A DNA stretch of 64,000 bases from Mumia sp. Pv4-285 (GCF_041320275.1 NZ_CP162023.1:930001-994000); one strand, 5' to 3'. Numbered from the stretch's first letter, positions 329 to 18,545 are shown. Notes: generated by a model not told the origin, from the letters alone. Program-made: numbers and translations.

Positions 329-1549
329 ATGACCACGTCTTCCGCATTGCGCCTCCGCCCGGAGCCGGACGGCCGGGTCACGACAGTGGTGATCACGCAC
401 GACGGCCGCCACCGGCTCTCCACATCCCTCGAGCGAAACCACCGCCCCCTCATCGTCGTCGACAACGCCTCCACCGACGGTTCTCCCGCGGTGGCCCGCC
501 AGCTCGCCCCGGACGCACGCGTCATCGAGCTGGGAGAGAACGCGGGTGCGGTCGCGCGCAACGTCGGCACGCGGGCCGCAGAGTCTCCGTACGTCGCGTT
601 CGCCGACGACGACTCGTGGTGGACCCCCGGCTCGCTGTCCCTCGCCGCCGACGTCCTCGACGCCCATCCGTCGATCGGTCTGGTCGCCGCGCGGGTCCTG
701 GTCGGCGAGGACGCCACCCTCGACCCGTTCTGCGAGGTGCTCGCCCGCTCGCCGCTCCCGCGATCACCTCTCGATCCCGGTACGACTGTCCTCGGGTTCA
801 TGGCGTGCGCGGTCGTGGTGCGGCGCGAGGCGCTGCTGGAGGTCGGCGGTTTCGACTCCGTCGTCCACATCCACGGCGAGGAGGAGCGGGTCGCCCTCGA
901 CCTCGCCGAGGCAGGGCACCGGCTCTGCTACCTCGACGACCTCGTCGTCCGCCACGTCCCCGATCCGGGGAAGACGACCGGAGCGCGCCGGCGGCGACTG
1001 GCGCGCAACGACGTCCTCACCGCCGTCATGAGGCTCCCCGCCAGAACCGTCGCCCGGCGGATCGGCCGGCACGTCCGCGAAGGGCGTGCCGGCGTGCTGG
1101 GTGTCATCGACGCCGTCACGCGACTCCCGAGTGCTCTGGCGAACAGACGCCCGGTCGGCCACGACGTCGAGCTCCAGTCGCGGATCGTCGGTCTCGCGGA
1201 CGGACCGCGACCGCTCGAGGGCGGCGCGAGCCCGCGCCGACCGGCCGTACCCTTCATCTTCCCGTCCGCTCGCGCGAGGGACCCCCTCGCGCCGGAAGGA
1301 GCAGTGAGAACCATGGCTACCTGCAGCGTCTGCGGCAACCAGTACGACGGCGCGTTCACCATCACGACCGCCGACGACGAGACACGGGTCTTCGACAGCT
1401 TCGAGTGTGCGATCCACGCGCTCGCACCTCGGTGCGCCCACTGCGGCTGCGCCGTCGTCGGCCACGGTCAGCAGGTCGGCGGCGACGTGTACTGCTGCGC
1501 CCACTGCGCTCGGGAGAGCACGGGCGCGGACCTCGCCGATCGAGTCTGA
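329..1549 (+). CDS. GT2 glycosyltransferase reading without a stop into a small zinc-ribbon protein
   Basis: Residues 1-290 are a GT2 (GT-A fold) glycosyltransferase. They show the strand VTTVVITHDGR, the nucleotide-binding VVDNASTDGS at about 43-52, and the metal-binding DDD at 93-95 (AFADDDSWW). An acceptor-side GGFD...HGEEERVALDL segment lies at about 173-192. The frame continues through a low-complexity Pro/Arg/Ala stretch (about 291-328) with no stop. From Met329 it reads a complete Cys-rich small protein with several C-x-x-C pairs, which usually stands alone in actinobacteria. Either this is a fusion, or the glycosyltransferase stop codon was lost or misread. The GT9 gene transcribed away from it suggests a surface glycan locus. 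Confidence 0.8.
   Translation: MTTSSALRLRPEPDGRVTTVVITHDGRHRLSTSLERNHRPLIVVDNASTDGSPAVARQLAPDARVIELGENAGAVARNVGTRAAESPYVAFADDDSWWTPGSLSLAADVLDAHPSIGLVAARVLVGEDATLDPFCEVLARSPLPRSPLDPGTTVLGFMACAVVVRREALLEVGGFDSVVHIHGEEERVALDLAEAGHRLCYLDDLVVRHVPDPGKTTGARRRRLARNDVLTAVMRLPARTVARRIGRHVREGRAGVLGVIDAVTRLPSALANRRPVGHDVELQSRIVGLADGPRPLEGGASPRRPAVPFIFPSARARDPLAPEGAVRTMATCSVCGNQYDGAFTITTADDETRVFDSFECAIHALAPRCAHCGCAVVGHGQQVGGDVYCCAHCARESTGADLADRV
1313..1549 (+). CDS. Small zinc-ribbon protein, likely separately translated from an internal start
   Basis: This 78-residue protein lies in the same frame as the 3' end of the GT2 gene. Its ATG at 1313 has GGAAGGAG about 11 nt upstream, so independent translation is plausible. 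It opens ATCSVCGNQYD, then has FDSFECAIHAL, CAHCGCAVVGHG and YCCAHCA, a set of C-x-x-C pairs and His that should bind one or two zinc ions. Actinobacteria encode free-standing proteins of this size and pattern, without an established function. Whether the cell makes the fused form, the short form or both cannot be settled here. Confidence 0.7.
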   Translation: MATCSVCGNQYDGAFTITTADDETRVFDSFECAIHALAPRCAHCGCAVVGHGQQVGGDVYCCAHCARESTGADLADRV

Positions 1550-1569
1550 CGCGTTCCTTCCTGAGGGAT

Positions 1570-1575
1570 TAGAAT
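1570..1575 (+). promoter_or_regulatory. Candidate -10 box (TAGAAT) for the GAF-ANTAR gene
   Basis: TAGAAT matches the TANNNT -10 consensus. It lies 38 nt before the ATG at 1614 and would give a leader of about 32 nt containing the GGGGA ribosome-binding sequence. No clear -35 was found. Confidence 0.35.
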
Positions 1576-1613
1576 TCGGGGGTCACGATCCTTGGCAAGA
1601 ATGTGGGGACGAC

Positions 1614-2300
1614 ATGGCAGACGACGGTCTCGACCCCCGGGAGCTCACAGACCTCGCTGAGGAGCTGCACTCGGCCGACTCGCCGCACGAGACGGCGGAG
1701 CAGATCATCAAGTACCTGTGCGAGATGCTCGAGATGGACCACGCCGGTGTGACGATGCTCCGGGCCGGCGGAGGCATCGAGACGGTGGCAGCGACCGGTG
1801 ACGTCGCCTTCCGGGCCGACGAGCTGCAGGAAGAGCTGGGCGAGGGACCTTGCTGCGACGGCGCCTGGGACCAGACGCTCCGGTCGGGCGAGCTGAGCGA
1901 GGAGACCCGCTGGCCGCGGTGGACGGATGCGCTCGCCGACCTCGGCGTCGCGAGCCTGCTCGCGGTGAGCCTGGCCCACGGCGGCAGACGCATCGGTGTG
2001 GTCTCGCTCTACTCGAAGGAGGCCCGCTACTTCGACGAGGACGATGCTGCTCTCGCGCACCTGTTCGCGCGCCATGCGGCGATCGCGATCGCCCGGTCGG
2101 AGCAGGAGGCCAACCTCAACCTCGCGCTCGACGCGCGCAAGCTGATCGGGCAGGCGCAGGGCATCCTGATGGAGAGGTTCGGCCTGGACGAGTCCCGTGC
2201 CTTCGAGGTGCTCCGGCGCTACTCGCAGCACCACAACCTCAAGCTGAGGACGGTCGCCGAGCAGCTCGTCGCCACCCGCAGGCTCCCGTCGCTCAGCTGA
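1614..2300 (+). CDS. GAF and ANTAR domain regulator
   Basis: The protein has 228 residues. A GAF sensor domain covers roughly residues 15-150, including the typical GEGPCCDGAW and RRIGVVSLYSKEARYF stretches. An ANTAR domain covers about 165-225 (ALDARKLIGQAQGILMERFG, then AFEVLRRYSQ and LRTVAEQLV). ANTAR domains bind paired RNA hairpins and act as transcription antiterminators; the GAF part probably senses a small ligand or redox state. The start was set at the ATG after GGGGAC (1604-1609), because sequence upstream of it is not conserved in character. The 3' end overlaps the convergent membrane-protein gene by 8 bp. Confidence 0.85.
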   Translation: MADDGLDPRELTDLAEELHSADSPHETAEQIIKYLCEMLEMDHAGVTMLRAGGGIETVAATGDVAFRADELQEELGEGPCCDGAWDQTLRSGELSEETRWPRWTDALADLGVASLLAVSLAHGGRRIGVVSLYSKEARYFDEDDAALAHLFARHAAIAIARSEQEANLNLALDARKLIGQAQGILMERFGLDESRAFEVLRRYSQHHNLKLRTVAEQLVATRRLPSLS

Positions 2301-2775
2301 CGCGCGATCGCGCCCTGTGGTTCAGCAGAGGCAGCGCGATCCACAGGGAACCGAAGAGCAGTGCCGACGCGGCGAACGCCCACCAGGCCCAGGTCGGACC
2401 GATCACCACGTCGAACACCAGCCAGAGCACGCCCGAGACGGTGATCGCCAGAGCGGCGAGACCGACGCTCGCGCAGCGGTGCGCTGCACGGACGAGCCAG
2501 GGTCGCTGACCCTGACGGAAGAGTGCGCGGTGCATGGCGACCGGGGCCACGAGGAGCGCCGTCGCCGCCACCGAGCCGGAGAGCACCGCCAGGTAGACGA
2601 GCTCCTGGCCGTCGGAGAGGTCCTCGAACCGCTCGGTGAACGGAACGGTGAGAAGGAACGCGGTGAGGATCTGGACGCCGGTCTGGGCGACCCGCAGCTC
2701 CTGGAGGAGCTCGTTCCAGTTGCGTGTGAGCCGCTCGTCGCGAGTCTCGCCCTTCACCCGCCCGTCGTCGGTCAT
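2293..2775 (-). CDS. DUF6328-like four-helix membrane protein
   Basis: This 160-residue protein has a charged N-terminus (about 35 residues) followed by four hydrophobic segments near 36-52, 63-85, 106-127 and 130-150. The N-terminal LQELRVAQTGVQILTAFLLTVPF and the ERFEDL loop resemble the DUF6328 family, common in actinobacteria and of unknown function. GGAG stands 5 nt before the ATG at 2775. It is divergent from the CBS gene, with 150 bp between the starts, and its stop overlaps the end of the GAF-ANTAR gene. Confidence 0.7.
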   Translation of the reverse strand: MTDDGRVKGETRDERLTRNWNELLQELRVAQTGVQILTAFLLTVPFTERFEDLSDGQELVYLAVLSGSVAATALLVAPVAMHRALFRQGQRPWLVRAAHRCASVGLAALAITVSGVLWLVFDVVIGPTWAWWAFAASALLFGSLWIALPLLNHRARSRVS

Positions 2776-2925
2776 CGGCTCCTCCGTCTCCGGGCGTCCG
2801 AGCCCGGTCAGGGCCCCACCTTGGAGGATGGGCCGTGCTGCTGGCAAGCACGCGAATGGATGCCTGCGCCGCGGGGTACCGACGAGGGCATCACAGGTAC
2901 CGCCAACCGAGGAACGGAGACGACG

Positions 2926-3342
2926 ATGACGACGGCACGAGACCTCATGACCGAGGGCGCGGAGTGCGTCCAGGAGAACGAGACCCTGCAGCAGGCGGCG
3001 CAGAAGATGCGCGACCTCGACGTCGGCGCGCTGCCGATCTGCGGCGAGGACGATCGTCTGAAGGGCATGCTCACCGACCGCGACATCGTGATCCGGTGCA
3101 TCGCCGACGGCGGCGACCCCGCCTCGGTCACGGCGGGGTCGCTCGCCCAGGGCAAGCCGGTGACCATCGGAGCCGACGACTCCGCGGAGGAGACCCTCCG
3201 GACGATGGCACGCCACGACGTCCGCCGGCTCCCGGTGATCGACGGCCACGACCTCGTCGGCATGGTCGCGCAGGCCGATGTGGCGCGGTCGCTCGACGCC
3301 GACGTGGTCGGCCGAGTCGTGCAGGAGATCTCGGAGGCCTGA
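2926..3342 (+). CDS. CBS-pair domain protein
   Basis: The 138-residue protein is almost entirely two CBS motifs. The first (about 5-60) includes DLMTEGAECV, LDVGALPIC and LKGMLTDRDIVIR; the second (about 75-132) includes VTIGADDSAEETLRTMARHDVRRLPVIDGHDLVGMVAQADVAR. Stand-alone CBS pairs bind adenine nucleotides and serve as energy or stress sensors. The GGAACGGAG sequence 6-14 nt upstream supports the ATG at 2926. Its neighbours (DUF6328 membrane protein, stress-type oxidoreductases, PRC-barrel proteins) resemble the general stress islands of this group, but no partner can be named. Confidence 0.85.
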   Translation: MTTARDLMTEGAECVQENETLQQAAQKMRDLDVGALPICGEDDRLKGMLTDRDIVIRCIADGGDPASVTAGSLAQGKPVTIGADDSAEETLRTMARHDVRRLPVIDGHDLVGMVAQADVARSLDADVVGRVVQEISEA

Positions 3343-3370: not shown

Positions 3371-4549
3371 TCACGGTCGGAACAGGATCTTCTGGGCGCC
3401 GTCGGTCTTGCGCTGGAACGTCGCGTAGGCCGACGGCGCCTCGTCGAGCGGCAGGTGGTGGGTGGCGAAGCCCTCGACGTCGAGCGGGTCCGAGGGATCC
3501 TGCACGAGCGGCAGGAGCTGGGGGATCCAGCGTCGTACGTTGGCCTGGCCCATCCGCAGCTGCACCTGCTTGTCGAAGAGGTCGAGCATCGGCAGCGGGT
3601 CCGCGGCACCGCCGTACACGCCCGACAGGCTGATCGTGCCGCCACGCTGCACGACCTCGATCGCCGTCATCAGGGCCGCGAGCCGGTCGACGCCGACGTG
3701 TTCCATCAGCGGCTTGGACAGCATGTCCGGGAGCACGCCGACCACCGTGTGGGCCGCCTGGGCGACAGGAGACCCGTGGGCCTCCATGCCGACCGCGTCG
3801 ACGACGCTCTCGGGCCCGCGACCTGCGGTCAGATCCTTCACCCGCTCGGCGACATGGCCCTCCCGGGAGTCGAGGACCTCCGCACCGTGCGCCGACGCGC
3901 GAGCGAGCCGGTCGTCGACGAGATCGACGCCGATCACACGGACGCCCCGGTGGACCGCCAGGCGTGCCGCCATCTGCCCGATCGGCCCGAGGCCCAGCAC
4001 GAGCAGGGTCCCGCCGTCCGGCACGGCCGCGTACTCGAGGGCCTGGAACGCCGTGGGAAGGACGTCGGAGAGGTAGACGAAGCGGTCGTCGGGCGGTCCG
4101 TGCTCGACCTGGACCGCCGTGGACGAGGCGAGAGGGACCCGAAGGTACTCCGCCTGCCCTCCAGGCACCTGGCCGTACATCGCCGAGTAGCCGAAGAGCG
4201 CGGCGCCCTTGCCCTGCTCGCGGACCTGGGTGGTCTCGCACTGGCTGTAGAGCTCGCGGTCGCACATCCAGCACGCGCCGCACGAGATCTGGAACGGGAC
4301 GACGACGCGGTCGCCGACGGCCAGGTTGGGAACTCCGGACCCGACCTCCTCGACGATGCCGAGCGGTTCGTGCCCCAGCACGTCGCCTGGGGTCATGTAG
4401 GGCCCGAGCACCTCGTACAGATGCAGGTCCGAGCCGCAGAGGCCGCTGCTGGTGACGCGGATGATGGCGTCGGTCGGCTCCTCGATCCGGGGGTCGGGGA
4501 CCTCCTCGACGCGGACGTCGCGTCGTCCTTGCCAGGTCACTGCCTTCAT
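3371..4549 (-). CDS. Zinc-dependent alcohol dehydrogenase (MDR family)
   Basis: This 392-residue medium-chain dehydrogenase has the catalytic zinc ligands Cys38 (SSGLCGSD) and His60-Glu61 (LGHEPLG). A complete structural zinc site follows: Cys90, Cys93, Cys96 and Cys104. The Rossmann motif VLGLGPIGQMAARLA and the following VIGVDLVDDR indicate NAD(P) binding. The layout and length resemble formaldehyde-dehydrogenase-like members rather than short ADHs; the substrate is not determined. Its ATG overlaps the stop of the CDGSH gene (ATGA), and AAGGACG provides the ribosome site. It is the last gene of the minus-strand run that begins at 8848. Confidence 0.88.
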   Translation of the reverse strand: MKAVTWQGRRDVRVEEVPDPRIEEPTDAIIRVTSSGLCGSDLHLYEVLGPYMTPGDVLGHEPLGIVEEVGSGVPNLAVGDRVVVPFQISCGACWMCDRELYSQCETTQVREQGKGAALFGYSAMYGQVPGGQAEYLRVPLASSTAVQVEHGPPDDRFVYLSDVLPTAFQALEYAAVPDGGTLLVLGLGPIGQMAARLAVHRGVRVIGVDLVDDRLARASAHGAEVLDSREGHVAERVKDLTAGRGPESVVDAVGMEAHGSPVAQAAHTVVGVLPDMLSKPLMEHVGVDRLAALMTAIEVVQRGGTISLSGVYGGAADPLPMLDLFDKQVQLRMGQANVRRWIPQLLPLVQDPSDPLDVEGFATHHLPLDEAPSAYATFQRKTDGAQKILFRP

Positions 4550-4791
4550 CGTTCGTCCTTCCTCGTCGGGAGCTTCTTGGACGACGACCCGCGCGCGAGC
4601 TTGTGCGTGCCGTCGCACCAGGGTTCGCGGCCGGTGCGCCCGCAGCGGCAGAACGCCACCACGGGACGCTTCACGGCCGGCTGGTCGTCGGAAACGATCA
4701 CGTCGACGGCCAGGACGTCGCTGCGGACCAGGGCCGGTCCACCGGGGCAGAGCACGACCTCGGCCGAAGGTGTCCGGGGCTGGCCGCTCAT
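4546..4791 (-). CDS. CDGSH-type 2Fe-2S protein
   Basis: The protein has 81 residues with one CDGSH motif near the C-terminus: Cys48, Cys50, Cys59 and His63 in CRCGRTGREPWCDGTH, the exact C-x-C-x2-T-x3-P-x-C-D-G-T-H pattern. Such proteins hold a 3Cys-1His [2Fe-2S] cluster and act as electron or cluster carriers. No membrane anchor is present, unlike mitoNEET. Its start overlaps the stop of the diiron-type protein and its stop overlaps the start of the alcohol dehydrogenase, so all three are translationally coupled. An electron-carrier role for one of these enzymes is an inference. Confidence 0.9.
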   Translation of the reverse strand: MSGQPRTPSAEVVLCPGGPALVRSDVLAVDVIVSDDQPAVKRPVVAFCRCGRTGREPWCDGTHKLARGSSSKKLPTRKDER

Positions 4792-5813
4792 CGGGCTGCC
4801 TCCAGGGCTTGCTCGTCGGTGCTGTCCCACTGCGCCATCAGAGCCTCGGACTGGTGGGAGTCGAGGACGAGGCAGGCGGCGGCGCCGAACAGCACGTCGC
4901 GGGCGGTGACGTCCCCGGCCCGGACCATCGTGCCGCAGATCTCGCGGGCCGCGAGCTGCTCGTGGACGGCGTCGGCCTCGACGTGCTCGTCGTAGTAGCG
5001 CGCCGCGGTGTCCCCGAACCCGGTCCGGCGCAGGCCCGCGGCGATCCGGCGGCACGGGATCGAGCTGGTCGCCTCGAACGCAGCGAGGTGACCCATGGCG
5101 GCACCGCGCAGCCGGCGGTGCAGGCAGAACAGCGACATCGCGTTCGAGCCGGCCAGCGTCGGCGCGTCGGCCTCCTCGATGTAGGCGCCGTACGCGTCGT
5201 CGAGCCCCGCCTCGCGGAGCGTGACCGCGAACAGCTCGTGGTGGAGGTAGCCGCTGCGGCCGCCGCCGTACTCGTCGTACTGCAGCTCGACGAGGTGCGC
5301 CTTCGCCGGGCCGGTCAGCCGCGGGATGACGAAGGTGTGCGGGTCCGCCTCCTTGAGGTGGTAGATGCTGCGCTGGCGGAGAAAGGCGCGCACCTGGTCG
5401 GGCGTCGCGTCGCGCCGGATGAACCGGGAGAGGTCCGGCCCCTCGTCGAAGCCCTCGGCGAGGGCGAAGACCTGCTCCGCCACATCTCCGTCGACTCCGA
5501 GCGCCCGGTTGACCCAGCCCTCGGTGACGTCGCGGAGCGCCTGCTCGAACGGGCGCTCGAGCACGGCGCGAAGTCCGGCGACCTCGGGCGCCGACTCCCA
5601 GCGGTCGTCGACCTCCTCGAACCCGCGGAAGCTGAGCTCGTAGATCATCCAGAGACTGAGCTGGAGGTCGTGGTCGTCGAGGACCGTCGCCGGTGGTTCC
5701 GCGGCGGCGCGGTCCTCTGCCGTCCGGTCGAGCTCCTCGAGCGGGCCGTCCCCGTCGAGCAGGAGGTGGCGCAGGCGGGCACTCAGCGGCCCCCGCGGTC
5801 GGGGAAGCCGCAT
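4788..5813 (-). CDS. Iron-containing redox enzyme (haem-oxygenase-like diiron fold)
   Basis: This 341-residue, mostly helical protein belongs by its pattern to the haem-oxygenase-like diiron oxidase (HDO) group. Probable metal ligands are spaced as in that family: Glu176 (or Glu181) in KAHLVELQYDEYGGG, His191/192 in GYLHHELF, Glu247 in HLAAFEATS, and His277, Asp281 and His284 in YYDEHVEADAVHEQL. HDO enzymes use two irons and O2 for N-oxygenation, desaturation or C-C cleavage. About 150 N-terminal residues precede the core. It is coupled at both ends (TGATG with the upstream unknown gene, ATGA with the CDGSH gene). The substrate is unknown. Confidence 0.75.
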   Translation of the reverse strand: MRLPRPRGPLSARLRHLLLDGDGPLEELDRTAEDRAAAEPPATVLDDHDLQLSLWMIYELSFRGFEEVDDRWESAPEVAGLRAVLERPFEQALRDVTEGWVNRALGVDGDVAEQVFALAEGFDEGPDLSRFIRRDATPDQVRAFLRQRSIYHLKEADPHTFVIPRLTGPAKAHLVELQYDEYGGGRSGYLHHELFAVTLREAGLDDAYGAYIEEADAPTLAGSNAMSLFCLHRRLRGAAMGHLAAFEATSSIPCRRIAAGLRRTGFGDTAARYYDEHVEADAVHEQLAAREICGTMVRAGDVTARDVLFGAAACLVLDSHQSEALMAQWDSTDEQALEAAR

Positions 5814-6340
5814 CAGACGATCTCCTGGGTGGCTGACAAGGTGGTCTCGCGGTAGCCCGGGGTGCGGTCGGTCATCACGTCGGCCACCGCCTTGGCGAGC
5901 ATCGGCAGCGGGACGTGGCCGCGGGTGTCGAGAGTCTGTAGCTCGCCCCGGCAGTCCCAGAACACGCCGGCCACGGGGTCGTGGCGCAGGATGTGGACCT
6001 GCGCTGCGGGGTAGGCCTCGTGGACCTCGCGGAACCAGGCCGTACGGTCCGGTGGCATCGTCGTCCCCGCGAGCGTGACGACGCAGCCGCTCGCCGACAC
6101 CACCCCGGGCACCATGGCCGCCACCGCCCGGCGGACCAGGGAGTCGTCCGGGTCGTCGGTCAGCCAGACCACGAGGTCGGTGACCATGGTGCGGTCGAGG
6201 AGCTCCTCGAGCCGCGCGGCGTCGTCGAAGGCGCGGCTGGTCACACGGGCCACGCGGCCGAGGTTGGCGAGTCGTACGGACAGGTAGTCGTCGATGAGGT
6301 CCGGGACGTCGACGAGGACGACCTCACGGGAACCGGGCAT
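5813..6340 (-). CDS. Hypothetical protein, Rossmann-like, unknown function
   Basis: I do not recognise this 175-residue protein. It alternates hydrophobic strands and helices (REVVLVDVPDLIDDYL, TDLVVWLTDDP, SASGCVVTLAGTTM, AAQVHILRHDPVAGVFWDCRG), as in a single-domain alpha/beta nucleotide-binding or epimerase-like fold, but has no glycine-rich loop that I can identify. The start was chosen at 6340 because AGGAGG lies 5-6 nt upstream; a longer version from 6409 would lack a ribosome site. Its stop codon shares one base with the start of the diiron-type protein (TGATG), so the two are very likely made together. Confidence 0.6.
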   Translation of the reverse strand: MPGSREVVLVDVPDLIDDYLSVRLANLGRVARVTSRAFDDAARLEELLDRTMVTDLVVWLTDDPDDSLVRRAVAAMVPGVVSASGCVVTLAGTTMPPDRTAWFREVHEAYPAAQVHILRHDPVAGVFWDCRGELQTLDTRGHVPLPMLAKAVADVMTDRTPGYRETTLSATQEIV

Positions 6341-6405
6341 GGGCACCTCCTGTCCGCCGAGTACCCCGTGGAAGACGCGCTCACACCTGTCGGAGACGGT
6401 CGGCG

Positions 6406-6762
6406 TCACGCCTCACGCAGCGGCACCGGGTCTCGCCCGAGCCGGATCTGTCGCCGGTCGAGATCGATCTCCTCCACGTCGTCGAAGGACGCGAACGTGG
6501 CGTGCCGGTGCAGCGCGAACACGACCGCACGGACCAGCGCTGGGCCCTGCTCCGCGCGCCGGTCGTAGCCGAGCAGCGAGCCCGCCGTGCGGTGCGAGAC
6601 CACCAGGCCCTCCAACGTCATCGAGGTGTAGCCCGACGTCCCGGCGGAGAGCACCGCACGGACGTCGTTGACGTAGCCGACGCGCTCGCCGTCGGGGCCG
6701 ACGACCTCGAGGCCGAGCAGCTGCGAGAGCCGCCGGCGTACGGGCTCAGTGCTCGGGGTCAT
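6406..6762 (-). CDS. PRC-barrel domain protein, second of a pair
   Basis: The 118-residue protein contains LLGLEVVGPDGERVGYVNDVRAVL, a typical PRC-barrel opening of two strands around a GxxIG-like turn, and a C-terminal VEEIDLDRRQIRLGRD strand pair. PRC barrels are small beta domains that bind proteins, RNA or membrane partners. The ATG at 6762 lies inside the end of the preceding PRC-barrel gene (17 nt overlap), so co-translation is likely; GGAG lies upstream. With the next gene it makes a PRC pair downstream of the Nramp-like transporter. Confidence 0.7.
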   Translation of the reverse strand: MTPSTEPVRRRLSQLLGLEVVGPDGERVGYVNDVRAVLSAGTSGYTSMTLEGLVVSHRTAGSLLGYDRRAEQGPALVRAVVFALHRHATFASFDDVEEIDLDRRQIRLGRDPVPLREA

Positions 6763-7138
6763 CGCTGGCTCCGGGGATGCGTCGTACGAGGTGCTCGCGC
6801 ACCCAGTCCTCCAGACCGTCGACGTCGGTCTCGGCACGGGTGATCGACAACGTCACCGCCGAGCCGAGGTCGGCGACGAGGTCCATCGCGATGGTCGCGG
6901 GCGCGTCGCGACGGGAGAGCCGGCGCCAGGCACCGACCAGCGGGCGCGCGATCCAGCCGGGGAGCCGGGGCCCGAGTGCCCCGGGCCCGGTCTGGAGCCC
7001 GACCACCACCCAGCGACCGTCCGGGCGCTGCTCGACCACCACGTCGTCGACCTTGCCGACCATCCGGCCTCTCCGGTCGAGGATCTGACGGTCCATCAAG
7101 GAGAGCAGCATGTCGAGATGCACGTCCTTGGTCCTCAT
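6746..7138 (-). CDS. PRC-barrel domain protein, first of a pair
   Basis: The protein has 130 residues. A PRC-barrel core occupies about 14-60 (DRQILDRRGRMVGKVDDVVVEQRPDGRWVV, read in two halves), then GLQTGPGALGPRLPG and a C-terminal helical part ending WVREHLVRRIPG. It follows the Nramp-like gene by 16 nt and overlaps the next PRC gene by 17 nt. The position suggests a cytoplasmic accessory or regulatory subunit for the transporter, but this is inferred from gene order only. Confidence 0.72.
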   Translation of the reverse strand: MRTKDVHLDMLLSLMDRQILDRRGRMVGKVDDVVVEQRPDGRWVVVGLQTGPGALGPRLPGWIARPLVGAWRRLSRRDAPATIAMDLVADLGSAVTLSITRAETDVDGLEDWVREHLVRRIPGASDDPEH

Positions 7139-7154
7139 CGTCGTCTCCTTCGTC

Positions 7155-8387
7155 TCATCCCTGCCCCATCCGCGTGATCACCATGAGCGGGATCGCCGCG
7201 ACCGCCGCAACGAGGATGATCCCCGCGAAGACGGTGCCGAGAGCGTTCGCCAGGCGCCCGTTGACGTGCTCTCCCATGTAGGTGCGGTCGTTGGCGACGA
7301 CGAGGATCGGCAGATACGTCAGGGGGAGCGCGATGGTCGAGAACACGACCGAGAACTCCGTCACCGTGATCGGGTCGACCGTCGTCATGAGCACGAGCAC
7401 CGCCGCGACGACGGCGAGGATCATCACCGCGTGGAAGCGCGCCGCGGTGAGCGGCCGGACGTACTTGCCCCACTGCCACCCGAGGTACTGGGCGATGCTG
7501 TAGCCGACGGAGAGCCCGGTCTCGCAGGCGGCGCCGAACGTGGCGCCGAAGAAGCCGACGAGGACCACGACGACCCCGATCGTCCCGAGCGCCTGCGCGA
7601 CGGGCATGCCGACCTGCCCGAGGGTGGACACGTCGACGCCCAGGGGTTGGAAGAGCATGCTCGTCGCTGCGGCGATCGCCAGCGACAGGATCCCGCCGAG
7701 AGGGAAGCCGATGAAGACGTTCATCCGCATCGTCCGCAGGTCTCGGACGGACCAGTGCTCCTCGACGCCGCCGGAGGAGAAGAAGAACACCTCGTACGGG
7801 GTCATCGCCGCGCCGAACAGCGCGACGGCGTAGTAGGCGTAGACGGTCCAGCTCTCGTCCGGCGGCTTCGCGAAGGTGACCGCCTCGGTGATCATCTCGC
7901 CCCAGTCCGGGCCGAGCTGCCACACGGCGACCGCGAAGACGACCAGAGCGAGCCCCAGCAGGCCGAACACGTTCTCGAGGACGTCGAACTTCACCCGCCA
8001 GAGCACCAGCCAGACCGCCGCGGCGACGACCGGGACGACGAGGAGGTACGAGACGGAGCTGGCGAGCTCCAACGCGAGGGCGATGCCGCCGATCTCGGCC
8101 ACGAAGGTCAGCAACGTGACGCCCATCGAGGCGAGGAGGTTGAGGAGGCCCATGCCCGGACCGAGGCGCTCGCGCACCAGATCGAACGTCGCACGCCCGC
8201 TCACCGCCGCCACGCGCCCCGACATCTCGGCGAACACGCAGATGCCGAGGACGCCGACGAGAGTCACCACGGCGAGCGACAGCCCGAAGCGCGCCCCGAC
8301 CTGGGCGTTGGTGACGAGGTCGCCGATGTCGACGAACCCTCCGATGGCGGTGAGGATGCCGAGGGCGACGGCGAAGACGCCCTTCAC
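7155..8387 (-). CDS. Nramp-family transporter with altered metal-binding motifs
   Basis: This 410-residue protein has about 11 hydrophobic segments and the overall layout of Nramp (LeuT-fold) metal transporters. The two unwound helices that bind metal are changed. TM1 has Asp20-Ile-Gly-Asp23 where Nramp proteins have DPGN. TM6 has Met195-Thr-Pro-Tyr-Glu199 where they have M-P-H-N, so the transition-metal-binding Met and the His appear replaced by Thr and Tyr. Related proteins lacking that Met prefer Mg2+ over Mn2+/Fe2+, so the cargo here may not be a transition metal. Its start overlaps the lipoprotein stop (ATGA). Confidence 0.8.
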   Translation of the reverse strand: MKGVFAVALGILTAIGGFVDIGDLVTNAQVGARFGLSLAVVTLVGVLGICVFAEMSGRVAAVSGRATFDLVRERLGPGMGLLNLLASMGVTLLTFVAEIGGIALALELASSVSYLLVVPVVAAAVWLVLWRVKFDVLENVFGLLGLALVVFAVAVWQLGPDWGEMITEAVTFAKPPDESWTVYAYYAVALFGAAMTPYEVFFFSSGGVEEHWSVRDLRTMRMNVFIGFPLGGILSLAIAAATSMLFQPLGVDVSTLGQVGMPVAQALGTIGVVVVLVGFFGATFGAACETGLSVGYSIAQYLGWQWGKYVRPLTAARFHAVMILAVVAAVLVLMTTVDPITVTEFSVVFSTIALPLTYLPILVVANDRTYMGEHVNGRLANALGTVFAGIILVAAVAAIPLMVITRMGQG

Positions 8388-8848
8388 CGTTCGGCCACCG
8401 TCGGCGCGATCTCCTGACGTGCCTCAGCGATCTGCGACCCGACCTCGGCGAGGTCGGAGCGGATCTGGGCGTACGACCCGTGTCGCCCCCGGCGTACGGC
8501 GATGCGCGCCTCGGTCACCAGACCGGACGCCTCCTCGAGGAGGTCGGTCGTCGAGTCGTAGACCGCCTGCTCGCTGGCGGGCGGCTGGGTGGCCGCGTAC
8601 GACTGCTGCGTGGATCCGAGCGACTCCTCCTGCTCGGTCAGGACCACCGTGCCGTACGGCCGCGGCAGTCGCCGCAACCGGAGCTGGTCGAGGGCGACGC
8701 CGGTGGTCGCGACCGCACTGGTCGCGTCTTCGAGCGCTCGGTCCGACTGCTCGAGGAACGCGGCGGGCGTCGGTGCCCCGCACGCGGTGAGCAGGGCCGC
8801 GACCGCGGTCGCGGCCACGACGGCGACGTTCGTACGCGCACGAGGCAC
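8384..8848 (-). CDS. Small lipoprotein, first gene of the Nramp/PRC/diiron run
   Basis: This 154-residue protein has a short positive N-terminus, a hydrophobic stretch and the lipobox LLTAC (Cys at about 23), so it should be lipid-anchored outside the membrane. The mature part is helical and rich in Ala, Glu and Ser, with no recognised domain. The GTG at 8848 has CACGAT six nt upstream, a near-match to the leaderless -10 pattern common in this window. Its stop overlaps the start of the Nramp-like gene, so it may be an extracellular partner of the transporter. Confidence 0.7.
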   Translation of the reverse strand: MPRARTNVAVVAATAVAALLTACGAPTPAAFLEQSDRALEDATSAVATTGVALDQLRLRRLPRPYGTVVLTEQEESLGSTQQSYAATQPPASEQAVYDSTTDLLEEASGLVTEARIAVRRGRHGSYAQIRSDLAEVGSQIAEARQEIAPTVAER

Positions 8849-8900: not shown

Positions 8901-10091
8901 TCAGGCGGGGGTCGGTGTGGGTCCGACGCCGTGGGTCGGCGGGGTGCTCGGGGTGTCGTCGCGAGGGAACGGCCCCTCGGGACCGTCGGACGGCGGCGGT
9001 GACAGCGGTGGTGGCGGCGGCGGACCGTCGGCCCGCAGCGCGATCTGCTCGTTGACGTAGCGCAGGACCGCTGCGGCGGTCGCCACGGCCGGCACCGCCA
9101 GGAACGCGCCCGTGATGCCGAACAGCGAGCTGCCGGCCGTGATCGCGAGGAGCACGACCGCCGCCTGCAGGTCCATCGCCTTGCCCTGCAGCCAGGGCGA
9201 GAGGACGTTGCCCTCGAGCTGCTGCACGGCGATGATCACGATCAGCATGATGACGGCGTCGCGGAAGTCGTTGGTGACCAACGTGATGAGCACGGCGAGC
9301 GCCCCGGTGACGAACGCGCCGACGATCGGGATGAACCCGCCGAAGAACACGATGACGGCGAGCGGGATCGCGAGCGGGACGTCCAGGATGACGAGGCCGA
9401 GCCCGATGAAGACCGCGTCGACGAACGACACCAGCGCCTGGGTCCGGATGAACCCGCCCAGCGTGCCCCACGCGCGGCTCCCTGCCTCGCTGAGGTGCGT
9501 GCCGACCCGTCCGCCGAGGGTCCGCTGCAGCCACGGGAGGAACTTGTGGCCGTCCTTCACGAAGAAGAACGTCAGCATCAGGACGAGGACCGTGTTGACG
9601 ATGACGTTGGTCGCCGCACCGAGGGTGGACAGGGCGCCGGCGCTGATGACGTCGGCGCTGTCGCGGAGCTTGTCCTGCAACGACTGGATCGCGTTGTCGA
9701 GCTGGTTCTCGGTGACGCCGAGCGGACCGTCCTGGACCCAGTCCTGGATCGCCTGCAGGCCGCGGCCACCCTCGGCGGCGATGTCGCCGGCCTGGCCGGC
9801 CACCTGCGGCGCCAGGACCGCGACCACACCCGTCAGGACCGCGAGAAAGCCGAGCACGACAACCACAGCCGCGAGGGCAGCGGGAACGCCGCGCCCCCGT
9901 AGCCACGCCGCCGGAGGACCGAGCAGCGTCGTCACGATCAGCGCAAGCATCACCGGATAGCCGATCATCCAGAACTTGCCGATGATCCAGCCGAGGACGA
10001 ACAGACCGGCGGCGATGGCGATCAGCTGCCACGACCAGCGGGCGAGCGTGCTGAAGCCGCTGGCGAGGACGGCAGAGCGGTCACGGGTCAC
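8901..10091 (-). CDS. AI-2E family (YdiK/PerM-like) membrane permease
   Basis: The protein has 396 residues with about eight membrane helices: an N-terminal pair, a soluble helical insert with QDWVQDGPLGVTENQLDNA, then the conserved C-terminal core. The core includes FFVKDG, GGFIPIVGAFVTG and EGNVLSPWLQGKAMDLQA, all hallmarks of the family. Members export small molecules or act as Na+(Li+)/H+ antiporters; the AI-2 role is unproven for most. The tail (about 355-396) is Pro-rich (PPPPPPLSPPP) and probably disordered. The GTG is seven nt after a TAGCCT box (10099-10104), so the transcript is probably leaderless. Confidence 0.88.
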   Translation of the reverse strand: MTRDRSAVLASGFSTLARWSWQLIAIAAGLFVLGWIIGKFWMIGYPVMLALIVTTLLGPPAAWLRGRGVPAALAAVVVVLGFLAVLTGVVAVLAPQVAGQAGDIAAEGGRGLQAIQDWVQDGPLGVTENQLDNAIQSLQDKLRDSADVISAGALSTLGAATNVIVNTVLVLMLTFFFVKDGHKFLPWLQRTLGGRVGTHLSEAGSRAWGTLGGFIRTQALVSFVDAVFIGLGLVILDVPLAIPLAVIVFFGGFIPIVGAFVTGALAVLITLVTNDFRDAVIMLIVIIAVQQLEGNVLSPWLQGKAMDLQAAVVLLAITAGSSLFGITGAFLAVPAVATAAAVLRYVNEQIALRADGPPPPPPLSPPPSDGPEGPFPRDDTPSTPPTHGVGPTPTPA

Positions 10092-10109: not shown

Positions 10110-10787
10110 TCAGGGAAGTCTCCAGTCGACAGGCGCGCTGCCGAGGGCCGACAGTGCGGCGTTGACGCGGCTGAACGGGCGCGATCCGAAGAATCCGCGC
10201 GACGCCGACAAGGGGCTCGGATGGGGAGAGGCGATGACCGGGATGTCACCGAGCCACGGCTGCAACGACTGCGCGTCGCGGCCCCACAGCAGGGCGACCA
10301 GCGGCTGGTCCCGGGCGACGAGCGCCTTGATGGCCTGCTCCGTGACGGGCTCCCAGCCCTTGCCCCGGTGGCTCGCCGGCCTACCGGGTGCCACGGTCAG
10401 GACCCGGTTGAGGAGCAGGACTCCCTGCTTCGCCCACGGCGTGAGGTCGCCGGACGTCGGCTCGGGCACCCCGAGGTCGGTACGCATCTCCGCGAAGATG
10501 TTCATCAGGCTCCGCGGCACCGGCCGCACGTGCGGGGCCACCGAGAACGAGAGCCCGACCGCGTGGCCCGGCGTCGGGTACGGGTCCTGGCCGACGACGA
10601 GCACCTTCACCGACGCCATCGGCTCCTGGAAGGCGCGGAGGACGTGGCGTCCCTCCGGGAGGTACTGGTGGCCGGCGGCGATCTCCGCACGCAGGAAGTC
10701 GCCCATCGCGGCGACCTGTCCGGCGACGGGCGCGAGCGCCTCGGCCCAGTCGGGAGCGACGAGATCTGTCAGGGGGGCGGCGGGCAC
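10110..10787 (-). CDS. ung: Uracil-DNA glycosylase, family 1
   Basis: The 225-residue protein removes uracil from DNA as the first step of base excision repair. It carries both family 1 signatures: [20 protein letters not shown] at about 65-84, with the catalytic Asp68, and the minor-groove loop [20 protein letters not shown] near residue 190, with the catalytic His. LLLNRVLTV for uracil specificity and LWGRDAQ are also present. Length is normal. The GTG at 10787 follows a TACGCT box by seven nt, suggesting a leaderless transcript of its own. Confidence 0.95.
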
Positions 10788-17336: not shown

Positions 17337-18545
17337 GTGTCACCCCTGACTGCCTATCGGCGACTCTTCTCCCTCGCCGGACCGGCCTACGTCGTCGTCG
17401 CCTTCCTGGGCCGTCTGCCTCTCGCGATGAGCCAGATGGGCACGCTGCTGCTCGTCTCGTCGACCACCGGCTCGTACACCCTCGGCGGCCTCGCCGCGGG
17501 CGCCCTGGCGGTCGCGAACGCCGTCGTCTCGCCGATCGCCGGAGCGACTGCAGACCGGATCGGTCAGCGACCCGTCGTGCTCGCCCAGTCCTTCGCCGGA
17601 GCCGCCGGGCTCTCGGTGCTCGTCCTGCTGACGCAGGCGGGTGCCGCCGGTGGCTGGCTCGTCCTCGTCGCCGGTCTGACCGGCGCCGCGATGCCGCAGA
17701 TCGGCCCCCTCGCCCGCGTACGGTGGCGTCCGATCACCGGCCACGCAGGACGCGAGTCGCCGCAGCTGGTCGACGCTGCGTTCTCGTACGAGGGCGCCGC
17801 CGACGAGGCATCGTTCGTGCTCGGCCCTGCCCTCGTGGGTGCGGTCGCCGTCCTGATCGACCCCGCGGGATCGCTGCTGGTCGCGGCGGGCCTTCTGGTC
17901 GTGTTCGGCGGGTGGTTCGCCCTCCACCGGACCGCGGCGCTCGTGCGCGGTTCGCGCGGAGCCGTACGCACGAAGGCGAGCATCCTGTCGGCGGCGTTCG
18001 TCGCGCTGGTCGTGGCGCAGCTGTTGGTCGGCGTGCTGTTCGGCTCCGTCCAGACCGGAGCCACCGCGCTCGCGACCGCCGAGGGCACGCCCGGCGTCGC
18101 CGGTCTCGTCCACGCGACGCTCGGCGTCGGATCCGTCGTCGCGGGCCTCTCGATGGCCTGGGTCCCGGCGCGGATCGGCTTCGAGAAGCGCATCCTGGTC
18201 GCGGCCGGGGCGCTGGCCGTGCTGTCGGCGCCGCTCGTGCTCGTGCACAGCATCGGCGGCCTGGTCGCGGTCGTCCTGGTGCTCGGCTTCGCCGTCGCCC
18301 CGTACATGATCAGCAACTTCACCCTGGGCGAGCGGATCGTCCCGATCAGCCGCGTCGGCCAGGCGATGACCCTGCTCGCGGGCGCCACGGGCATCGGGTA
18401 CGCGATCGGCTCGACCGTCGCGGGTCGGCTCGCCGACGCCGGCGGGTACGCACCGGCGCTGGGCGTGACGGTCACCGCCGCGTGGCTCGCGCTGATCGTG
18501 GCCCTCGCCAGTCAGCGCACGCTCGCGGCGGCGCCGCAGCGATGA
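17337..18545 (+). CDS. MFS transporter
   Basis: The 402-residue protein has about twelve helices. The N-terminal half carries GATADRIGQRPVV (MFS signature loop 2-3), and the C-terminal half ends with GSTVAGRLADAGGYAPALG. The GTG at 17337 follows GAGGAC by six nt and fits the start of the first helix (RLFSLAGPAYVVVAFLGRLP). A TACACT sequence about 70 nt upstream is a possible -10. The cargo is not evident; drug or metabolite export is typical for such single genes. It ends 4 nt before the convergent acetyltransferase gene. Confidence 0.84.
   Translation: MSPLTAYRRLFSLAGPAYVVVAFLGRLPLAMSQMGTLLLVSSTTGSYTLGGLAAGALAVANAVVSPIAGATADRIGQRPVVLAQSFAGAAGLSVLVLLTQAGAAGGWLVLVAGLTGAAMPQIGPLARVRWRPITGHAGRESPQLVDAAFSYEGAADEASFVLGPALVGAVAVLIDPAGSLLVAAGLLVVFGGWFALHRTAALVRGSRGAVRTKASILSAAFVALVVAQLLVGVLFGSVQTGATALATAEGTPGVAGLVHATLGVGSVVAGLSMAWVPARIGFEKRILVAAGALAVLSAPLVLVHSIGGLVAVVLVLGFAVAPYMISNFTLGERIVPISRVGQAMTLLAGATGIGYAIGSTVAGRLADAGGYAPALGVTVTAAWLALIVALASQRTLAAAPQR

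Follow-up and report, generated by a model that had tools for sequence, protein, structure and literature searches.

A same-strand run of eight genes in Mumia sp. Pv4-285: a probable pair of adjacent general-stress modules of predicted function

Background

Eight genes follow one another on the minus strand of a 64,000-nucleotide stretch of DNA from Mumia sp. Pv4-285 (the whole stretch is called the window below, and all positions are counted in it unless stated otherwise), which comes from a genome assembled as a single contig of 4.65 Mb. They run from a lipoprotein gene starting at 8848 to a dehydrogenase gene ending at 3371, and encode, among others, an Nramp-like transporter, PRC-barrel proteins, a heme oxygenase-like diiron protein (HDO) and a CDGSH iron-sulphur protein. 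A sequence-only reading of the window had proposed that they form a single unit with a dedicated redox pathway. The question is whether the run is one system or a juxtaposition of several.

To our knowledge, natural-product biosynthesis is nearly the sole context in which HDOs have been described, which gives the question some weight.

The enzymes with 3H/4C ligands make up about a quarter of HDOs (review, PMC13108848). DtpC of Acinetobacter is an HDO tied to desiccation and oxidative stress, and its HDO ligands are required for desiccation survival; according to the June 2026 paper describing it, no other HDO was tied to either stress (PMC13232832).

The interpretation that we favour is that of two general-stress modules lying side by side, hereafter A (lipoprotein to PRC2) and B (the 175-aa gene to the dehydrogenase). 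Both are conserved among actinobacteria of the soil type, and a putative general-stress promoter often stands before either of them. The whole reading, to which we assign a probability of about 0.6, is that the two are independent and merely juxtaposed, that module B is transcribed from its own promoter of the SigB/SigF type, and that the functions are as predicted below; of this, direct observations are the modular structure, the enrichment of the promoter box, the linkage of the genes, the ligands of HDO and the fold predicted for it.

Results

The gene coordinates and junction sequences confirm the eight-gene minus-strand map that had been proposed, including its five overlaps of the stop/start type (Table 1). 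The overlap is GTGA between the lipoprotein and Nramp genes, 17 nt between PRC1 and PRC2, TGATG between the 175-aa gene and HDO, and ATGA both at HDO/CDGSH and at CDGSH/ADH. The two other junctions are gaps of 16 nt (Nramp-PRC1) and 65 nt (PRC2 to the 175-aa gene), the latter being the sole large one. GC content at third codon positions is 0.89-0.96 in all eight genes, a coding-like composition. The upper boundary of the run at 8848 is arbitrary, since two further genes continue upstream on the same strand: AI-2E (8901-10091), 52 nt from the lipoprotein gene, and UDG (10110-10787), 18 nt from AI-2E.

Table 1. Features of the run, in the order of reading on the minus strand
Feature	Module	Position	Strand	Size	Evidence
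Lipoprotein	A	8384-8848	-	154 aa	Lipobox LLTAC; stop overlaps the Nramp start (GTGA)
Nramp-like transporter	A	7155-8387	-	410 aa	Pfam PF01566, 161 bits; DIGD / AAMT (DxxD-AxxT)
PRC-barrel protein 1 (PRC1), N-terminal half of tandem PRC	A	6746-7138	-		PF05239, 14 bits, weak, below cutoff
PRC-barrel protein 2 (PRC2), C-terminal half	A	6406-6762	-		PF05239, 21.0 bits against a cutoff of 21.2
Putative SigB/SigF-type promoter box GTGT-N16-GGGTAC	B (start)	6361-6386	-		Motif scan; congeners; enrichment
175-aa protein, no known family	B	5813-6340	-	175 aa	ATG at 6340; ribosome site AGGAGGTG
HDO (iron-containing redox enzyme)	B	4788-5813	-	341 aa	PF14518, 186 bits
CDGSH iron-sulphur protein	B	4546-4791	-	81 aa	PF09360, 44 bits, above cutoff
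Zinc-dependent alcohol/formaldehyde-type dehydrogenase (ADH)	B (accessory)	3371-4549	-	392 aa	PF08240, PF00107

The division into modules is drawn at the 65-nt gap, inside which, before the 175-aa gene, lies the box GTGT-N16-GGGTAC (minus strand, 6386-6361). A scan of the whole window for GNNT-N14-17-GGGTAN gave eight sites, and only this one and another at 17345 stand just upstream of a called gene. In all four congeners that have the locus, a box of the form GTGT/GTTT-N15/16-GGGTAC, at differing spacers, precedes either the 175-aa gene (or its remnant) or HDO. Among 40 loci of Propionibacteriales, 24 have GNNT-N14-17-GGGTA no more than 200 nt from the start of HDO, and for other genes of the same loci the figure is 10 of 192; five controls with a scrambled -10 element were found upstream of HDO in 0-1 of these 40 loci, and the spacing between -35 and -10 peaks sharply at 15-16. 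Over 80 named loci from the whole phylum the box is much rarer before HDO (15/79, against 8/301 for other genes, while one control -10, GGTGA, reached 8/79), and the link between the box and HDO is therefore lineage-dependent.

The box has what is expected of a SigB/SigF-type promoter: GNNT/GTTT, a spacer, and GGGTAC/T at the start of an operon. Promoters of SigB homologues in Streptomyces, as given in the consulted text of PMC8346170, have -35 GTTT/GNNT and -10 GGGTAT/C, and are thus alike in both elements (GGGTAC/T) and similar in spacing; they come from another actinobacterial family, and that text names no HDO-CDGSH operon. A sigma factor gene (Pfam: sigma-70 regions 2-4; the label SigB/F/G-type is our own reading of the sequence) is located about 20 kb away at genome position 914490 and is 85% identical to the gene of a congener. 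We infer that the box at 6386-6361 probably works as a promoter of the SigB type.

Concerning module A, the relatives of the transporter are mostly 46-76% identical to it. Of their 39 loci, 37 have PRC1 close by, in most cases as the next gene downstream, and 30 have PRC2. PRC1 and PRC2 are one polypeptide in 20 loci, about half of the relatives, and the pair observed here is a naturally divided form of this tandem PRC protein. A sequencing frameshift was considered as the origin of the split and ruled out, as other genera also have split pairs that end in the same C-terminal RIPG..H. In 23/39 loci the Nramp gene follows a small lipoprotein ORF, often with an overlapping stop and start. In 18 of 37 copies the promoter box stands before the lipoprotein, 380-700 nt upstream of the Nramp gene (2-4 for control boxes, and none inside the gene). 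There is no box upstream of the lipoprotein in this strain, so module A may here be read from AI-2E or only weakly.

The role in metal supply that had been suggested for the transporter is weak, considering that it has no Met/Asn signature of the Mn/Fe importers. The published signatures are DxxG-TxxA/T for NRMT, DxxN-AxxT for NRAT and DxxN-A/CxxM for MntH (PMC8806188). The residues DIGD and AAMT agree neither with the Mn2+/Fe2+ importers of the MntH type (DxxN in helix 1, A/CxxM in helix 6) nor with the Mg2+ transporters of the NRMT type (DxxG in helix 1, TxxA/T in helix 6), and DxxD-AxxT is found in nearly all relatives of the transporter.

It is tempting to take module A for a general-stress Mg2+ uptake unit related to NRMT, with the PRC barrels as cytoplasmic regulators and the lipoprotein as a partner on the outer face. 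The best solved relative is the Mg2+ transporter EleNRMT (7qia; E 8e-33, against 1e-11 for MntH), which is the closest over the whole length of the protein; both are without the soft Met ligand, which is replaced by Thr in ours. However, DxxD-AxxT is not the DxxG-TxxA/T of EleNRMT and equals none of the three signatures listed in PMC8806188, the near-constant PRC-barrel neighbour sets the transporter apart from EleNRMT, identity to an NRMT-type sequence (L229) is only 30%, and another ion as the substrate, or the direction of export, could apply. We regard Mg2+ uptake as a serious possibility that falls short of being probable. A review places a third, uncharacterised outgroup of the Nramp Pfam family beside Slc11 and NRMT (PMC9606685), and the module A transporter may belong to it.

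Concerning module B, residues E155, E181, H191, E247, H277, D281 and H284 of HDO align with E189, E215, H225, E281, H311, D315 and H318 of SznF. All seven SznF-type 3H/4C ligands are present, and the conservation of each in the HDO alignment (A1) is either complete or no lower than 90%. The AF2 model (pLDDT 93.6) is all helical and has the heme-oxygenase-like fold; the closest solved folds in Foldseek are those of the N-oxygenases HrmI (TM 0.76), SznF and RohS. These proteins (in SznF, the central domain) share with HDO the fold and the seven ligands and are its best matches in both sequence and structure. In contrast to them, the module B protein, which is about 16-25% identical to them, is a stand-alone one, is accompanied by CDGSH and a stress-type box, and has no recognised natural-product cluster around it. 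We propose from the ligands and the fold that HDO binds two irons and activates O2. N-oxygenase chemistry may be presumed; since identity to the nearest characterised HDOs does not exceed about 25%, this is a guess within the superfamily.

The linkage of the diiron and CDGSH genes, which was part of the sequence-only reading, is true: in 76 of the 80 named loci of Actinomycetota a CDGSH gene is found no more than 4 kb from HDO, from Nocardioides to Arthrobacter, Blastococcus, Micromonospora and Solirubrobacterales. Within the same distance, ADH occurs in 5/80 and Nramp in 0/80 of these loci. The CDGSH gene is often directly downstream of HDO, sometimes divergent, and sometimes separated from it by a glycosyltransferase gene (10 loci), so co-transcription of the pair is not universal. 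The motif CxCxxTxxxPxCDGTH, here CRCGRTGREPWCDGTH, agrees with CxCxxS/TxxxPxCDGS/A/TH. We presume that CDGSH is most likely the electron donor of HDO.

ADH is an accessory member of module B. Its best NCBIfam match is TIGR02819, at 138 bits far under the curated cutoff of 637, and the name of glutathione-independent formaldehyde dehydrogenase is not supported by that family.

The main rival concerning the role of HDO is that it is not biosynthetic but a protector that limits peroxide or oxygen as DtpC does, with CDGSH keeping the diiron centre reduced for the consumption of O2 or H2O2. DtpC, which we liken to the module B protein by its description, is likewise an HDO fold in a stress context, and the spacing of two ligands is equal (E143/H153 in DtpC, E181/H191 here). 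The stress-type promoter box before HDO, the need of DtpC for its HDO ligands in desiccation survival (PMC13232832), and the neighbours of HDO, which vary over the 80 named loci with no constant biosynthetic cluster, all agree with such a role. However, DtpC is a proteobacterial protein co-transcribed with the catalase KatE, with no CDGSH named (PMC13232832); a catalase motif was found near HDO in only 1 of the 80 loci, unlike the dtpC-katE arrangement, and in several lineages HDO has glycosyltransferase, methyltransferase or dehydrogenase neighbours, which may point to a small-molecule product. On balance we consider the DtpC-like role less likely than not.

The relation between the two modules is best seen in the genus. 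Four congeners (L034-L037) have at this locus the order UDG, AI-2E, (175-aa), HDO, CDGSH, (ADH), DUF6328, with ADH absent in L035 and present in the other three. None of them has the lipoprotein, Nramp, PRC1 or PRC2 genes there, and only short spacers separate the AI-2E stop from module B. The Nramp gene occurs in 31 of 198 genomes of the family (Nocardioidaceae), and in none of five congeners genome-wide. The empty site in four congeners and the absence of the transporter from all five make insertion of module A in this strain, at a point between AI-2E and the predicted promoter of module B, the most likely history; loss in all congeners is possible, and the choice between insertion and multiple losses rests on six genomes. 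In a tree meant to point to the donor of module A, the window copy groups with Nocardioidaceae sequences from other genera, and no sister to it is well supported.

Finding the Nramp-PRC and HDO-CDGSH blocks only apart from each other would speak against the single unit proposed from the sequence; such a pattern was looked for, and it is not what the genomes show. Of the 31 transporter-bearing genomes of the family, 10, about a third, have HDO at a distance of some 6 kb or less from the transporter (G000, G011, G079, G115, G130, G133, G136, G148, G183 and G198), as does a genome from a different family (L059), while about 0.1 would be expected by chance according to our estimate from genome length. 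Related species share arrangements, and the independent count is nearer to six arrangements than to ten genomes: collinear, as in the window; divergent with GAF-ANTAR and DUF6328 in between; directly divergent; collinear upstream; convergent; and the order of L059. In many other genomes with both modules, these are on different contigs or far apart.

Thus, of the claim of one linked system, the recurrence of the blocks together far above chance stands, and the single dedicated pathway does not. One eight-gene operon that imports metal, carries out O2-dependent oxidation, supplies electrons and handles aldehydes would suit the contiguity, the five overlapping junctions and the recurrent closeness of the blocks in some six arrangements, but it is very improbable, and was rejected, in view of congeners having HDO-CDGSH without the Nramp-PRC block and a conserved promoter box internal to the run, along with the lack of Nramp within 4 kb of HDO in all 80 named loci, modules that elsewhere are mostly far apart, on other contigs or divergent, and a transporter without the Mn/Fe signature. 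Shared regulation and the clustering of stress genes explain the proximity of the two modules better than one pathway does.

Discussion

In the reading of two general-stress modules, module A would be a membrane ion-transport unit. Stress would induce module B, transcribed from the box at 6386-6361. With two irons held by its seven SznF-type ligands, HDO would activate O2 and, most likely, N-oxygenate or otherwise oxidise a small amine or carboxylate, the electrons most likely being passed to it by CDGSH; ADH, where present, would handle an alcohol or aldehyde. The system would presumably have a protective role under stress, such as desiccation or oxidative stress.

A wider proposal, which we advance only tentatively, is that actinobacteria have, phylum-wide, a SigB-controlled HDO with a dedicated CDGSH [2Fe-2S] donor, making a protective N-oxygenated metabolite or removing O2 or peroxide in desiccation, and that beside HDO-CDGSH there is a stress-induced DxxD-AxxT branch of Nramp-like proteins run by tandem PRC barrels.

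Our literature search, which covered only a minority of subscription journals, found no paper that pairs CDGSH with a heme oxygenase-like diiron protein or "iron-containing redox enzyme", and none that links CDGSH with SigF or a PRC-barrel with Nramp. Within that literature the word "undescribed" can be kept for the HDO-CDGSH pairing and the Nramp-PRC module, which are the new part as far as searched; the component families are all known.

The observations concern a large separate group of HDOs across Actinomycetota, linked to CDGSH (76/80) and, in at least one order, to a general-stress promoter box. The linkage makes two points testable, the cellular reductant of HDOs and the role of an HDO outside biosynthesis. 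With module A, in turn, a conserved branch of Nramp-like proteins is defined, whose metal-site signature is none of the three in PMC8806188 and which almost always has a PRC-barrel partner.

The 175-residue protein (5813-6340) has no recognised family, as had been noted from the sequence: there is no Pfam match even at E 10. Its AF2 model is unreliable (pLDDT 44). Weak matches in SDR genes raised the idea of a decayed short-chain dehydrogenase, to which profile comparison gave no support. The gene is found only in this genus, with full copies in the present genome (G000) and in G001 and a decayed remnant in G002; since it is confined to the genus and decayed in one species, module B can do without it in its core function.

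Neighbourhood of the cluster

Of the genes beside the cluster, those for the GAF-ANTAR protein and DUF6328 are again found close to the Nramp and HDO (heme-oxygenase-like diiron oxidase/oxygenase) modules in other genera; this recurrence suggests that the cluster and its neighbourhood (window 329-3342) form a stress island.

Genes adjoining the cluster in the window
Gene product	Position	Strand
Family 2 glycosyltransferase	329-1549	
GAF-ANTAR protein	1407-2300	
DUF6328	2293-2865	minus
CBS-pair protein	2932-3342	

The Nramp-PRC module is present twice in one genome, G076 (loci L201 and L230), where a search for an HDO match at E 1e-40 found none. In L207 and L208 the PRC genes adjoin the Nramp gene on the opposite strand; therefore, the link between Nramp and PRC is independent of a single operon.

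Variation around the HDO gene

A glycosyltransferase-like gene lies between the HDO and CDGSH genes in ten loci from Arthrobacter, Cellulomonas, Streptosporangium and others (L118, 8001-10120, where the start of this gene is overlapping; L103, L109, L120, L123, L126, L128, L136, L142 and L151), a hint that the product is glycosylated or bound at the surface. Close to HDO and CDGSH, a gene for a SAM methyltransferase of class I, from the MTS family, occurs repeatedly (L039, L050, L058, L063, L064, L065, L068, L069, L071 and L072).

In the congener G002 (L035:9350-9510) the gene for the 175-residue protein is a remnant that has kept its two ends and the upstream SigB/SigF-type promoter box and has lost the middle; the HDO gene downstream is intact. 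A diverged HDO paralogue (L070:8920-9963; 31-34% identity) lacks several of the predicted metal ligands, including those at the E155 and E181 positions (window HDO numbering), and may not bind iron.
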